This document shows, piece after piece, positions 127 to 36,292 of a stretch of DNA of 36,577 bases (position 1 is its first letter; every line of letters starts with the position of its first letter). The notes below the pieces were generated by a model. It did not search any database. It was not told the origin of the DNA and worked only from the letters and a program-made list of their open reading frames with translations. Source of the stretch: a virus; IMG/VR virus record IMGVR_UViG_3300021964_006388, positions 1-36,577 of that record; one strand, 5' to 3'. A program made the translations under genes and the position numbers.

Positions 127-1189
127 TATGCGTTACAAGCAAGCTGAAGACATGCTTACCGAAGCTATCCGTTGCAAGCCGAATGACCACCGTAGCCATC
201 ACAATATGGCGACATTGTTGCTTGATTTGGGACGCTGGGAAGAGGCGCTGGAATCTGCTAAAACTGCTTACAAGCTAAAAAAAGACGAAGTTGCAACCCA
301 GCACTTGCTGTCGCTGGCGCATATGCAGAATGGTGATTTCAAGAATGGTATCAAACATTATGGTGCTAGAAAGCAGTTATTTTTGCGTGATAAAGCGCCG
401 TTACCCCGTTATGAGGGCGGCGAAGCAAAGGTTATTGTCCGTCACGAGCAAGGTATGGGCGACACGATTATGGCGGCAAGATGGTTGCCACGGCTCAAAG
501 AGATGGGCGCTGATGTCACACTTGTTTGCCCTAGACCGTTGGAATCGTTGATAAGTCGTTCCAATCTCGCAAAGATTCATAAAGAGGGTGACACGGATTA
601 TACGCACCATTTATGGACGATGGACTTGCTTGAGATGTTTGCTGGTGAATGGGATGACCTTGGCGGTGAGGCGTACCTGACGGCAGATAACGACATGATT
701 GCAGAGCTTGGCGCACAGTTGCCGAAGGGTAAGCCGCGTATTGGCATTTGCTGGTCAGGTGGCTTTAGGCCGAATGACATTGGTGCGTTTGTGATTGATA
801 AGCGGCGGTCAATGACGGCACAGGACGTTGTTAGCCTGTTCGATGGCCTAGATTGTCATGTGGTGAACCTGACGCGAGAGTGGGGATTGCCCAACGCGAT
901 TGATTTTAGCTGTGCCATTGGTGACTTTGATGAGCAAGCCGCGCTTATAAGCAATCTTGATTTGGTCATTACAGTTGACACGGCATTGTGCCACTTGGCT
1001 GGTGGCCTTGGCGTTCCAACTTGGATGCTGTCACGGTATGATGCGTGTTGGCGTTGGTGGCCGTATGAGAAGCGGTCACGGCTGTATAACAGCGTTGACT
1101 GCTACTTCCAGAGCAAAATGATGGACTGGCAAGGTGTTTTGCACCGTGTGCGGCACGACTTGGAGATATTCCTAGATGCAGAAGACTGA
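1..1189 (+). CDS. TPR-repeat glycosyltransferase, 3' part (gene starts at 36292)
   Basis: This is the larger part of a gene that begins at 36292 and runs across the join, about 447 residues in all; the first complete codon here is at base 2. Tetratricopeptide-like helical repeats occupy roughly the first 170 residues (motifs such as NLGNLLRER and NMATLLLDLGRWEEAL). The second half resembles GT9/heptosyltransferase-like domains: EQGMGDTIMAARWLP near residues 201-215, GICWSGG near 300, and a typical end motif with VITVDTALCHLAGGLGVP near 374 followed by a WRWW cluster. The likely role is transfer of a sugar to a virion or cell-surface acceptor; donor and acceptor cannot be read from sequence. 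It sits between the two terminase genes and overlaps the large terminase start by 14 nt. Confidence 0.82.
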   Translation, partial: LGYCLYKLNKEDYAERVWRGALELDPKSVPVLANLGNLLRERMRYKQAEDMLTEAIRCKPNDHRSHHNMATLLLDLGRWEEALESAKTAYKLKKDEVATQHLLSLAHMQNGDFKNGIKHYGARKQLFLRDKAPLPRYEGGEAKVIVRHEQGMGDTIMAARWLPRLKEMGADVTLVCPRPLESLISRSNLAKIHKEGDTDYTHHLWTMDLLEMFAGEWDDLGGEAYLTADNDMIAELGAQLPKGKPRIGICWSGGFRPNDIGAFVIDKRRSMTAQDVVSLFDGLDCHVVNLTREWGLPNAIDFSCAIGDFDEQAALISNLDLVITVDTALCHLAGGLGVPTWMLSRYDACWRWWPYEKRSRLYNSVDCYFQSKMMDWQGVLHRVRHDLEIFLDAED

Positions 1190-2573
1190 AAACACCGACC
1201 TGCTTGTCCAGCTTCACAACGACCCGGTGTTGTTCGTTGAAAGCATTTTGAAGGTGACACCCCAGCCGTGGCAAGCCGAAGCATTAAGGGCAGTGGCTAA
1301 CAATGACAGGGTTAGCATTGCATCTGGCCACGGTGTCGGTAAGACTGCCTTCCAAAGCTGGCTCGTGTTGTGGTGGCTGATAACGCATTATCCGTGCAAA
1401 GTTGCTGTCACGGCAAACACGGCGCATCAGTTGAGCGATGTGTTGTGGACGGAGATAGACAAGTGGGCGCGGCAGTTGCCCGAAGGTTTCAAACAGTTGC
1501 TAGAGTTCAAGAGCGACAAGATTAGCTTGAAGGGTGCGTCAGATAGTTTTGCCGTTGCAAGAACCAGTAGACGCGAGAACCCAGAAGCCTTACAAGGTTT
1601 CCACTCAGAAAATATGTTGTTTTTATGCGAAGAAGCGTCAGGTATTCCTGACGTTGTGTTCCAAGTCGGTGAGGGCGCAATGTCAACACCGGGCGCGAAG
1701 ACTGTGATGTGCGGAAACCCAACACGTTCTGAGGGTTTTTTCTTTGAGAGCCATCATAGCCAGCGTCACCGTTGGCATACGATGACTGTCAGTTGTCACG
1801 ATGCCACGACTGTTTCAGAGCAGTTCTTGGAAAGCATGAAAGAGAAATACGGTGAAGAAAGTAACGTATACAGGGTTCGTGTGCTGGGTCAGTTCCCTAC
1901 GCAATCAGATGATGTCTTATTACCGCTACATCTTGTGGAAGAGGCGACTAAGAGAGATGTTGAATCGTCACCCACGGCACCTGTAAGTTGGGGCGTGGAC
2001 GTTGCCAGATTTGGCGGCGATAGAAGCGCCATAGCCAAGCGTCAGGGCAATGTGCTGTTAGAGCCGATTAAGACGTATCAGGGCCGTGATTTGATGGAAA
2101 TGGCTGGTATTGTGCTTTCAGAGTACGAGGCTTGCACCTACAGGTTACGCCCTCAAAGCATATTTATTGATGCTATTGGCATTGGTGCTGGCTTGGCTGA
2201 CAGGTTGCGTGAGTTGGATTTACCAGCCGTTGCAATTTCGGTGTCAGAGACAGCCAGTTTGAAGGACAGGTTCAACAGGCTTAGAGATGAATTGTTCTGG
2301 AACGCTCGTGAATGGTTTGAGGCAAGAGATTGCAAGATACCGAATGACGCGGCGTTGATACAGGAAATTACTGGCATTAGGTACAAGTATCTGTCTAATG
2401 GTAAGCTCAAGGTCGAGAGCAAGGATGAGATGAAGCGGCGCGGTCAGCGAAGCCCAGACGTAGCTGATGCGTTTGTTCTTAGCTTTGCAGAGAGTGGTGC
2501 CATTGCTGGCGGCTATTCAAGAGGCTATAGTAGCAAGCGTAGTCTGAAACCAAACACAGGATGGGTTGTATGA
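1176..2573 (+). CDS. terL: Terminase large subunit
   Basis: The 465-residue product is the packaging motor ATPase and nuclease that cuts concatemers and drives DNA into the prohead. The N-terminal ATPase has a Walker A motif GHGVGKT at residues 51-57 and a Walker B-like MLFLCEEA at 147-154. The C-terminal RNase H-like nuclease shows the acidic cluster expected of the family: D275 in SWGVDVARFGGD, D332 in IFIDAIGIGAG, and D428/D431 in SPDVADAF. Length is normal for a compact TerL. The ATG at 1176 overlaps the end of the glycosyltransferase gene, and the stop overlaps the next start as ATGA, so the packaging genes look translationally coupled. Confidence 0.95.
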   Translation: MQKTENTDLLVQLHNDPVLFVESILKVTPQPWQAEALRAVANNDRVSIASGHGVGKTAFQSWLVLWWLITHYPCKVAVTANTAHQLSDVLWTEIDKWARQLPEGFKQLLEFKSDKISLKGASDSFAVARTSRRENPEALQGFHSENMLFLCEEASGIPDVVFQVGEGAMSTPGAKTVMCGNPTRSEGFFFESHHSQRHRWHTMTVSCHDATTVSEQFLESMKEKYGEESNVYRVRVLGQFPTQSDDVLLPLHLVEEATKRDVESSPTAPVSWGVDVARFGGDRSAIAKRQGNVLLEPIKTYQGRDLMEMAGIVLSEYEACTYRLRPQSIFIDAIGIGAGLADRLRELDLPAVAISVSETASLKDRFNRLRDELFWNAREWFEARDCKIPNDAALIQEITGIRYKYLSNGKLKVESKDEMKRRGQRSPDVADAFVLSFAESGAIAGGYSRGYSSKRSLKPNTGWVV

Positions 2574-30516: not shown

Positions 30517-30785
30517 GTATTGACGAAATCTACAAATTTATGCGTGAACTTGATGAAAGATGGATTCAAGGTGACATGGACGTTGATGACATCCACAAGG
30601 CGCTGGCGGCACTTAGGTTGGCGACATATGGCTGGTCTAAATCTCGCCAATCCACTGAAGGTTTGAGCTGTAGAAATATGGCGTTAGATATAAAGATTGA
30701 GGAACTTGAAAAAATCGTTGAGGAAAAAAGCGAAGAAATAGAAGTTCTGAAAAAGAACATCGAAAAGTTAAAGGGGAAGAAATGA
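30513..30785 (+). CDS. Small coiled-coil protein
   Basis: A 90-residue product with a helical N-terminal half and a C-terminal coiled coil (EELEKIVEEKSEEIEVLKKN). ATGA overlaps join it to both neighbours, including the replication initiator. Function unknown; a replisome accessory role is only a guess by position. Confidence 0.68.
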   Translation: MSIDEIYKFMRELDERWIQGDMDVDDIHKALAALRLATYGWSKSRQSTEGLSCRNMALDIKIEELEKIVEEKSEEIEVLKKNIEKLKGKK

Positions 30786-31558
30786 GCATAAAGGCAGTTA
30801 GCTGGGCATTTGACCAGCAGATAGGCGACCCAATGGCAAAGCTGGTGCTGATAGCAGTGGCTGACCATATCAATGAAAGCACTGGTGACGCATGGCCTAG
30901 CATTGAACGGTTACAGCATATGACCAGTGCCAGCCGCCGAACCATCCAACGCAAGCTGAAAATGCTAGAGGAAGATGGGTACTTGGAACGCAAAAAGCGA
31001 TTCAATGATACCGATTTGTACTCACTTGGTGCTAGGGGTGTCACAGTGACACGGGGTGTCACACAGTCACCTCTAGGGGTGTCACACAGTCACCCTAACC
31101 ATAATAGAACCGTTATACTAAATAATAAGGGGAAATCTAAAAAACAGCTTTTAGTGGATTGGACGCCTGATGATGCTGATAAGCAGTATGCAACCGAACA
31201 CGGCCTAGATTGGTCAGATACTTTTACCGATATTCAGCTATGGAATGAGAAAAACGGAAATAAAGCCGCATACGCGTCCTTAAAGGCATTTTGGCAGGTT
31301 TGGGTGCGGAAAGAGGCTAAAGACCGTCCAGCGCGCTTAAATCGCCAGCAATCGGCATGTGAGAGCAAAAGGGTAGCTACCCTGTCGCCGAAACAGGAAG
31401 AATATGCGAAATCAGCGGCTCTGAAGCTGGCGCAGCAGTATAAGGATGAATATTTCAGATATGATGACATCCTCAAGGCAGTTAATGCTTTTATGCTGAC
31501 TGACCAGACGGATGAATCTTGGAAGGCGATTGGTCTTGGCTTGCCCCGGCCGTTTTAG
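30782..31558 (+). CDS. Replication initiator (O/DnaT-like)
   Basis: A 258-residue product. Residues ~15-72 are a winged helix (DAWPSIERLQHMTSASRRTI, then RKLKMLEEDGYLER) like lambda O or HTH_36 proteins. Residues ~84-108 are a Gly/Ser/His linker written over DNA repeats. Residues ~125-180 (LVDWTPDDADKQYATEHGLD, then LKAFWQVWVRKEA) resemble the DnaT-like helicase-loading domain. It would bind the origin and recruit host helicase. No helicase or polymerase is encoded nearby. Confidence 0.83.
   Translation: MSIKAVSWAFDQQIGDPMAKLVLIAVADHINESTGDAWPSIERLQHMTSASRRTIQRKLKMLEEDGYLERKKRFNDTDLYSLGARGVTVTRGVTQSPLGVSHSHPNHNRTVILNNKGKSKKQLLVDWTPDDADKQYATEHGLDWSDTFTDIQLWNEKNGNKAAYASLKAFWQVWVRKEAKDRPARLNRQQSACESKRVATLSPKQEEYAKSAALKLAQQYKDEYFRYDDILKAVNAFMLTDQTDESWKAIGLGLPRPF
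31032..31165 (+). other. Candidate replication origin: iterons plus AT-rich tract inside the initiator gene
   Basis: Three repeats with core GGGGTGTCAC begin at 31035, 31053 and 31076. Units 2 and 3 are identical over 18 bases yet lie in different reading frames (23 nt apart), so DNA and not protein is conserved. Unit 1 contains the perfect 15-bp palindrome GTGTCACAGTGACAC (31038-31052). An AT-rich tract follows at about 31097-31165, suited to unwinding. Lambda has the same plan within its O gene. Confidence 0.72.
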
Positions 31559-34458: not shown

Positions 34459-35226
34459 CTAATGAGTTAAAAATACCACTGGCTTTGAAGCTTGCCAGCA
34501 TAAACCGCAATCACCGCATGAATCGGCAAGGGTTGGCTCATCTTTCTTTGCAAGCTTGCCAGTCGTTTTGCTGATTTGTGTAGGGCAGATAAAAGCTTTT
34601 TTGGCTTTCAGCAAATCCGCTGCCCTATCATCATCAGCCGACAAAGCCGAAAAATCATCAGTAAATGAGCCGGAAAAACGCACCGCAAAACGGATACCGC
34701 AAGCTAGGCGCAACGATAGGATAGCTTGACCAATTGCGCGTTCTTTGTTGTCTGGTGCGTCAAATTGGTTGGCAGTGTATCCGTAAACATGCAAAGCCGG
34801 AAACATTGCCAGCCATTTTGCCCATTGCGCCACATATGACACGCTGAAAAAATCGCCTAGCACATGCAAACGCACTAAAAAGCCATTCGGATGCTTGGCT
34901 TGATAATAGGTTAAATCGGCTTCAATTTGATGAATAAGTGATTCATCAGCTTGATAGCGTGTGGCGTTCATCATGTTATTGCCGTAACAATCAGCATAAT
35001 GAATGCAAGACGCCGGACAGGTGGCGCGTTCTTCTAGCGTTAAAGTAAGAATCGGAAAGCCAGCAAGCTTGCCTTTTGTTACACGCTTGCCAAGCTTGAC
35101 GTTTGTCGAAACTTTCAAGGCGCGTTCTGATTTTGCCATACCGTCTGAAACGGATTTTACGCGCAAATCGTGATACACGGATTTGCCAGCCATTACGGCT
35201 TTTTGTGTTTTAGTCAATTGTTTCAT
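34459..35226 (-). CDS. Cys-rich GP88-like protein
   Basis: A 255-residue product, first gene of this leftward block. Cys clusters ERATCPASCIHYADCYGNNM (near 88-107) and DSCGDCGLCW near the C-terminus suggest a metal or iron-sulfur site. The whole pattern resembles the phage GP88 family, whose biochemistry is unknown to me. The RLHVLGDFFSVSYVAQWAKW stretch is also typical of that family. AAGGGG lies 8 nt before the ATG. Confidence 0.72.
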   Translation of the reverse strand: MKQLTKTQKAVMAGKSVYHDLRVKSVSDGMAKSERALKVSTNVKLGKRVTKGKLAGFPILTLTLEERATCPASCIHYADCYGNNMMNATRYQADESLIHQIEADLTYYQAKHPNGFLVRLHVLGDFFSVSYVAQWAKWLAMFPALHVYGYTANQFDAPDNKERAIGQAILSLRLACGIRFAVRFSGSFTDDFSALSADDDRAADLLKAKKAFICPTQISKTTGKLAKKDEPTLADSCGDCGLCWQASKPVVFLTH

Positions 35227-35244
35227 AGCAAAAACCCCTTGTTG

Positions 35245-35290
35245 CTATTGTCTTATTTATAAGAGTGTAAATATATAATTGACACAATGC
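35245..35290 (-). promoter_or_regulatory. Probable leftward promoter for the small-gene block
   Basis: On the minus strand a TTGTGT is followed after 17 nt by TCTTAT, with ATATATTTACA and TTATAAATAAG between and after, in a very AT-rich 45-bp stretch upstream of 35226. Exact boxes are uncertain; the placement is right for a promoter. Confidence 0.45.
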
Positions 35291-35333
35291 AAGCAAAAAC
35301 GACAAAAAACTTGCAACGAATAGCGGTTTTTTT

Positions 35334-35361
35334 GGGGTAGGGGTAAGGGTTAGGGGTAGGG
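35334..35361 (+). other. G-quadruplex motif with five G runs
   Basis: Five runs of three or four G are separated by loops TA, TAA, TTA and TA on the plus strand. Any four runs can form an intramolecular quadruplex with very short loops, similar to telomere-like DNA. It lies between divergent operons and is the only such motif I noticed in the window. Confidence 0.85.
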
Positions 35362-35540
35362 CATCATCAAGCTATCGTTATAACATTACACACGCGCAAG
35401 GTGTCTTTCATTAACCAAAATTAGGTTATCTGGCCATAATCGCGATTCTAGCGCCACTGGCTGGCTTTGATATGCCCGGCGTATGATTCCGGCAGCCTAG
35501 CCGTTGCAGGCCGTCACGCGTCAACCTAGCGCGATGGCTT

Positions 35541-35603
35541 GTTGCGATTGATAACGATTCGCAATATCAATATCTTCCCGGTTGCGATTGATAATCATTC
35601 GCA
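35541..35603. repeat. Pair of 23-bp repeats with 40-bp period
   Basis: Copies at 35541-35563 and 35581-35603 share GTTGCGATTGATAA then a variable two bases and ATTCGCA (21 of 23 identical). The first copy also contains TTGCGA and TCGCAA as inverted arms. The 40-bp period is close to four helical turns, so two bound proteins would face the same side. Confidence 0.8.
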
Positions 35604-35687
35604 GCATGTCGCATAATGTTTGGTGTGTTCATGTGCTAATACGTTAAAACACCCCCCATCGAATCTGGCCGGGGGGCGGCATAAATA

Positions 35688-35817
35688 TATAATAGTCCCT
35701 CACTCACCCCTCACACCCCCCTTTAACCCACCACCACCCAAAACGTCCCTGCCGCCAAAATTCGTTGCAACTTTTCTTGCACTGCTAAACTAAAGATGTT
35801 ATTTGGCGAATAAGGAG
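35688..35817 (+). promoter_or_regulatory. Possible rightward late promoter(s)
   Basis: A perfect TATAAT at 35688-35693 lacks a -35 match because GC-rich sequence precedes it. A second candidate is TTGCAC (35778) with TATTTG 17 nt later. Either could start the late operon transcript before terS at 35825; neither is strong. Confidence 0.35.
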
Positions 35818-35824
35818 TGTGAAT

Positions 35825-36292
35825 ATGGCGAAGAAAAGAGGCCCAGCGCCTATATCTGGAGAACAGATGGCTGCACAGAAGGATTTGTTCATTGAGCTAG
35901 TCTCTGACGGCCTGTCAGCGCGTAAGGCTTGTGCTAGTGGCAAGTTGCCTACGTTTCCGACTATCAGCAAATGGCTGCGTGATGACGGCGAGTTCCGCGA
36001 CAAGTACCGCATAGCGATGGAGCTTCGGGCGCAAAAGATTGACGATGACATTGATGAGGCCATTGAGCAGATGAAGTACGGCGAGCTAGACGCCCAGCAA
36101 GCTCGTGTGGTGATTGATACCTACAAGTGGAGAGCCGCCAAGCTGTATCCGAAGCTGTACGGCGAGAACCAGAAGGTCGAGCATGAGCATAAGGTGGTCA
36201 GCTTTGTCGATGAGTTGAAACTTGCCGCCGCGCAAATTGAGCAGCAGCGACTGGCTGATAAGACCATTGAGGGTGAGGCAGAGGAGAAGTAA
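35825..36292 (+). CDS. terS: Terminase small subunit (Sf6-like)
   Basis: A 155-residue product that recognises phage DNA for packaging. The N-terminal helix-turn-helix (LFIELVSDGLSARKACASGK, then TISKWLRDDGEFRDKYRIAM) and the following helical oligomer region fit Sf6-type small terminases; the C-terminus is acidic and Glu-rich. ATG 35825 is chosen because AAGGAG lies 7 nt upstream, while the in-frame GTG at 35819 lies too close to it. The stop shares a base with the next ATG (TAATG). Confidence 0.88.
   Translation: MAKKRGPAPISGEQMAAQKDLFIELVSDGLSARKACASGKLPTFPTISKWLRDDGEFRDKYRIAMELRAQKIDDDIDEAIEQMKYGELDAQQARVVIDTYKWRAAKLYPKLYGENQKVEHEHKVVSFVDELKLAAAQIEQQRLADKTIEGEAEEK

Follow-up and report, generated by a model that had tools for sequence, protein, structure and literature searches.

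The DNA analysed here, referred to as the window, is a viral contig of 36,577 nt that is circular, with 126 identical bases at both ends, and the region considered is its 592-bp intergenic stretch (35227-35818). To the left lies a GP88-type gene (34459-35226, minus strand; Pfam PF17338), the first of a leftward operon, and to the right the rightward gene of a small terminase, TerS, of the Sf6 type (35819-36292, plus strand, probable start at 35825; Pfam PF20901, phrog_1482). Because the contig is circular, the large terminase, TerL (1176-2573, plus strand; phrog_2), sits ∼1.3 kb past TerS; the space between the two (65-1189) is taken by a gene for a TPR protein with a glycosyltransferase-family-9-like stretch.

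Read from left to right, the intergenic stretch holds the 16-nt left arm of an inverted repeat (AAAACTTGCAACGAAT, 35306-35321, plus strand, with a conserved TTGCAAC), a tract of five G-runs (35334-35361, plus strand; GGGGTAGGGGTAAGGGTTAGGGGTAGGG), and, at its centre, two 23-nt direct repeats (GTTGCGATTGATAA..ATTCGCA, 35541-35603, plus strand), a place where some relatives have other repeats. There follow a C-run/G-run/AT element, composed of a C-run, a G-run, the AT-rich CATAAATATATAATA and a C-rich tail (35652-35694, plus strand; single copy in the window), a second G-run tract of opposite polarity, seen as C-runs on the plus strand (35697-35749, minus strand; from the motif scan), and the right arm of the inverted repeat (ATTCGTTGCAACTTTT, 35760-35775, minus strand), just upstream of TerS. 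The two arms are 94% complementary and 438 nt apart; since both G-tracts lie inside them, the region is roughly symmetric, each flank having a promoter side, a TTGCAA motif and a G-tract, and a TTGCAAG-TTTT motif occurs on both promoter sides, just outside the tracts. A structured RNA was also considered and dropped, as the Rfam covariance models gave no match in 35100-35900 at E up to 1.

Regarding the left tract, it has G-runs of 4, 4, 3, 4 and 3 separated by the loops TA, TAA, TTA and TA, exactly the five runs with two- or three-base loops that a previous sequence-only reading had described, and it contains no C. With a canonical motif defined as at least four GGG runs and loops up to 7, this tract has the form of an intramolecular DNA quadruplex (at least four GGG runs, loops of 1-7), and the scan of both strands of the window returned two motifs, both within the 592-bp region and on opposite strands. 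In 200 dinucleotide-Markov versions of the window, the mean was 0.14 canonical motifs over both strands; two versions reached two motifs, and five runs with loops up to 3 occurred in none of the 200. The label "telomere-like" suits the look of the tract, whose G-runs of three or four and short A/T loops recall the human-type repeat (TTAGGG)n, but not its repeat identity: there is a single TTAGGG, the loops are irregular, and the tract, rather than a tandem of a fixed unit at a chromosome end, is internal to a contig that closes circularly. Likewise, the G-rich strand is indeed the non-template strand for rightward transcription, as claimed, but a transcript crossing it is not evident, since the gene on the left runs leftward and the one on the right starts ∼460 nt away.

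As for its conservation, relatives were found via GP88 (20 loci) and, in two overlapping sets of 38 and 46 loci, via TerS. The upstream sequences of 46 contigs and of the window, 47 in all, were reduced to 31 distinct ones, window included, by dropping eight without the C-run/G-run/AT element, three without upstream DNA and five duplicates; seven of the eight were truncated, and in the other, L049, the G-run of the element is shortened, while its tract, good on reading, is not counted. The TerS-side element and a CACACGCGC-type motif served as anchors, leaving the G-runs of the tract unused. At the tract position, at least three GGG runs are present in 27 of the 31 sequences, so that conservation of the runs, a check set beforehand, was mostly passed; at least four are present in 25 when loops may reach 12 and in 16 when they may reach 7, the tracts of L025 and L043 stop at three, and CCC runs occur in none of the 31. 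Loops and repeat number turned over among relatives (for instance, L048 has GGGGATATGATAGGGG repeats and L059 has GGGTTGGGGTTGGG), and in 22 of the 27 tracts with at least three runs the G's are clustered beyond what their own composition gives (shuffle fraction <0.05), the exceptions being L025, L028, L029, L058 and L101. ViennaRNA placed a quadruplex in the minimum-energy structure of 25 of the 31, with RNA parameters applied to a DNA tract. Canonical motifs lie within 620 nt before TerS in 17 of 30 relative loci, and none was found outside the region in the 191,272 bases of these loci. The G-runs, the absence of C and the position are kept while the intervening letters turn over, and the motifs are confined to the region; what had been called rare in phages of this kind is, as judged among relatives only, routine in the lineage of the window, at one place. 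On the right flank, all 28 distinct sequences of the window lineage have at least three CCC runs, and a GGG run occurs in none.

This pattern, in which a phage lineage keeps quadruplex-capable G-runs in one terminase-side control region while the letters change, points to a job for the G-runs, most likely one in the control of the two operons that meet there, or of packaging. A neutral origin, as low-complexity sequence expanded by slippage and devoid of function, would account for the repeat number that differs among close relatives, as slippage predicts, and for the one clade that lost its runs, but it is improbable, as the tract is retained in a single position over a TerS identity range of 55-99%, C is kept out of it, and no motif lies elsewhere in the 191,272 bases scanned. 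That clade (L102-L105, four sequences; TerS 66-71%) has one or two GGG runs in a GT-rich tract and keeps the neighbouring C-run/G-run/AT element; it is the kind of relative that the sequence-only reading had named as refuting a role, although most relatives keep the runs, and it shows that the tract is favoured and not indispensable.

Folding of the G-runs could itself be dispensable if a protein reads them in duplex DNA. The corresponding explanation, that a phage or host protein binds the double-stranded G-runs and no quadruplex forms, draws on nine of the 25 four-run cases, which need loops up to 12, on the two relatives with three runs, and on the repeated TTGCAA motifs, which suggest that proteins bind nearby; no fixed motif beyond the GGG runs survives, though, and the spacing between runs is irregular, which makes this explanation rather unlikely. 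Of the 24 sequences with a left TTGCAA, 16 have their first GGG at a distance of 22-26 nt from this motif; the left TTGCAA is missing in seven of the 31 (L101-L106 and L108), of which L101, L106 and L108 still have G-runs.

With respect to the neighbouring genes, the tract is retained in relatives where other genes replace GP88 on the left (L022, L030, L032 and L035), and it is absent from the GP88 relatives L001, L009 and L011 (76-87% identity), in which the gene adjoins different small and large terminases; in L002, a GP88 relative whose sequence ends before its large terminase, the region has no tract either. Being absent beside other terminases and kept with other left genes, the tract does not travel with GP88. 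An independent search with the left tract and the TTGCAAC anchor gave 38 stretches, 23 of them new; one of these, L232, is a member of the window lineage, and the other 22 look like chance. Regarding prophages or a host, no TerS relative was confirmed among 250 candidate stretches of genome contigs. Four unrelated phages (L005, L006, L007 and L015) have, immediately upstream of a close homologue of GP88, a CCCGA-rich repeat whose G-runs are on the opposite strand.

The C-run/G-run/AT element has a wider distribution than the tract. Aligned in the window and 18 relatives, it shows in every one of the 19 a C-run, a G-run, a CATAAATATATAAT-like sequence and then C-runs. A pattern scan (C-run, G-run, AATATATA) matched 110 stretches, many of them from a second lineage; there, the element is placed between TerS and TerL, and in most cases the next ORF begins ∼30-65 nt further on. 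Six contigs of genome length from this second lineage, read whole, contain exactly one element each; a tract like that of the window is absent from all six, and four of them have scattered G-run motifs of other kinds. TerL of the second lineage is 71-73% identical to that of the window over nearly the full length in most loci tested, and 57% in L157; in phage C72C1 (TerL 79%) the C-run/G-run and C-rich parts of the element occur between the terminase genes. Among annotated phage records, C72C1 is the closest to the window lineage by TerL and portal, and it has no such divergent region. Overall, the element accompanies one TerL family, whose tested members, phiM5 apart, are 57-79% identical to the window TerL. 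In phiM5 (MF074189; TerL 45-46%), an annotated 357-bp terminal repeat, for which the basis of the end annotation was not seen, ends just after CCCCCCCCCGCCCTCCCCTCGGGCTGGGGGCAGCGCATATATC; this phage shares with the window the TerL family and a C-run/G-run plus AT-rich sequence between the terminase genes, at the right end of the annotated repeat, and differs in that a plus-strand G-tract is absent from the 1,007 bases read, which run from upstream of the right repeat to its end. In six second-lineage loci (L117, L125, L126, L136, L165 and L169), the ORF immediately after the element is another one (MTTRRHENDFYPTPP...), standing where TerL would be.

Because the element is common to the TerL family and a similar sequence stands at the end of the phiM5 repeat, the region probably includes a packaging cut; the element itself is likely to be that cut. 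It is thus a candidate signature for the packaging cut in a whole TerL family, adjoining the terminase genes in both lineages and partly also in C72C1. An unusually stable hairpin was rejected as a property of the element (z 0.29). A late promoter in the AT stretch is less likely, for the window and the six other contigs of genome length have one copy each, which speaks against a promoter motif of general use. As for the ends of the contigs, counted over 83 of the 110 stretches (those newly fetched in the pattern scan, minus L135, L141 and L151, judged to be chance), four fall within 50 nt after the element versus 14 over the next 950 nt, a weak cluster that could also arise from assembly trouble at C-runs. 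The contigs L122, L134, L156 and L195 end 3, 4, 20 and 23 nt past the AT stretch, and in L156, of 35,322 bp, the two ends flank the element. Fixed genome ends were not adopted from these data, as contig starts in the window lineage are scattered and the wider set gives the weak cluster only.

The left tract could then be one edge of the packaging region, read by TerS/TerL in the way suggested for the Pac1 quadruplex of herpesviruses; for example, a short terminal repeat would begin at the tract on the left and finish at the C-run/G-run/AT element on the right. The region directly adjoins TerS, the element occurs once per genome in the six second-lineage contigs and is tied to one TerL family, phiM5 has its similar sequence at a repeat end, the weak cluster of contig ends follows the element, and the 361 bp from the start of the tract to the end of the AT stretch in the window is near the phiM5 repeat length. 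Against this, the left tract is missing from the second lineage and from the terminase regions of C72C1 and phiM5, which share the TerL family and the element, so that it does not behave as the packaging signal of that family, and the distance from TTGCAAC to the element varies among relatives from 252 to 361 nt; moreover, the phiM5 annotation and the contig ends have the caveats given above. In sum, the suggestion that the tract marks the packaging site fits its neighbourhood but not its distribution, and it is possible, though doubtful. An extension of it is a long shot: the tract and the element with its minus-strand G-tract would be the two edges of a terminal repeat of ∼250-400 bp, at which the terminase would recognise folded G-runs, opposite in polarity, and so cut both strands of the concatemer, making a tailed-phage counterpart of the Pac1 quadruplex.

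The comparison with Pac1 merits some detail. According to PMC13386867, which cites Biswas 2018 and Adelman 2001 for this work, Pac1 has a conserved quadruplex motif that folds in vitro and is not yet directly implicated in packaging; PMC10763189 describes Pac1 as an A/T-rich stretch flanked by C-runs, and TerS and the cos/pac sites are reviewed in PMC9611059. The likeness consists of G/C-run DNA with an AT-rich stretch, at or near DNA processed by the terminase, and of conserved G-runs on one strand; the stretch at 35652-35749 is the part that resembles Pac1, while the genome ends of the window phage are placed by inference, and the left tract, ∼300 nt away from the candidate cut, is missing from some phages with this terminase. 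The resemblance may serve as a lead and does not amount to membership.

A replication origin or pause element at the tract was also weighed. The sign of the GC skew changes near 35.5 kb, but gene orientation switches there too. The usual place of a lambda-type origin is a set of iterons within the initiator gene, and the window has three GGGGTGTCAC-type iterons (31035-31094, plus strand) inside an O-like initiator gene (30782-31558), 4.3 kb from the tract and the likelier origin. For this reason an origin at the tract, where such iterons in or beside an initiator gene are not found, was dropped as first choice and appears very unlikely; pausing of replication, another earlier proposal, was left without support.

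Two pulls therefore act on the role of the tract, which sits in a packaging-side region, yet occurs where this region is a divergent promoter region; in the tract-less phages of the same TerL family, the packaging-side element is flanked by TerS and TerL instead of lying in a divergent spacer. Since the left G-tract is absent from these phages, we rank first, as a tentative choice with less than an even chance, that the lineage maintains the tract as a structural DNA element within its divergent early/late control region. Transcription leaving both ways, leftward on the GP88 side and rightward on the terminase side, would leave the 592-bp spacer negatively supercoiled; the G-rich strand might then fold into a quadruplex or a related open structure, absorbing torsion and holding the DNA open, and the opened tract could tune the adjacent leftward promoter and insulate that promoter against the packaging/late side. 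The facing tract on the minus strand, beside TerS, may act likewise for the terminase side, or it may belong to the packaging-cut element. Regulation of the divergent operons, as first suggested, is thus possible on the grounds of conservation, clustering of the G's, position, retention beside other left genes, and the TTGCAA motifs on both promoter sides; the leftward promoter is weakly recognisable, with a spacing that is not uniform among relatives, and this, together with the run loss in L102-L105, the three-run tracts of L025 and L043 and the left TTGCAA missing in seven sequences, speaks against it. The control regions of lambda-type phages are similar in their divergent promoters and repeated operator-like motifs; here, instead, G-run tracts on opposite strands flank the centre and the terminase is the first rightward gene.

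Quadruplex motifs at packaging/control sites have been discussed for herpesviruses; for phages, the literature searched on quadruplexes, phage genomes and DNA packaging described none in a control region of packaging or terminase genes. A phage lineage with motifs confined to one terminase-side region, 31 natural variants and one loss clade would make such a role testable in a simple system; in addition, the shared C-run/G-run/AT element, as a candidate cut signal for the whole TerL family, would be useful to predict genome ends in metagenomes. Finally, a few hundred nt upstream of TerS, L042 and L056 have the sequences TGAGAATCATTCTCA and GATAATGATAATGAGAAC, which resemble iron-regulator (Fur) boxes; they occupy a slot that has different repeats in other relatives.
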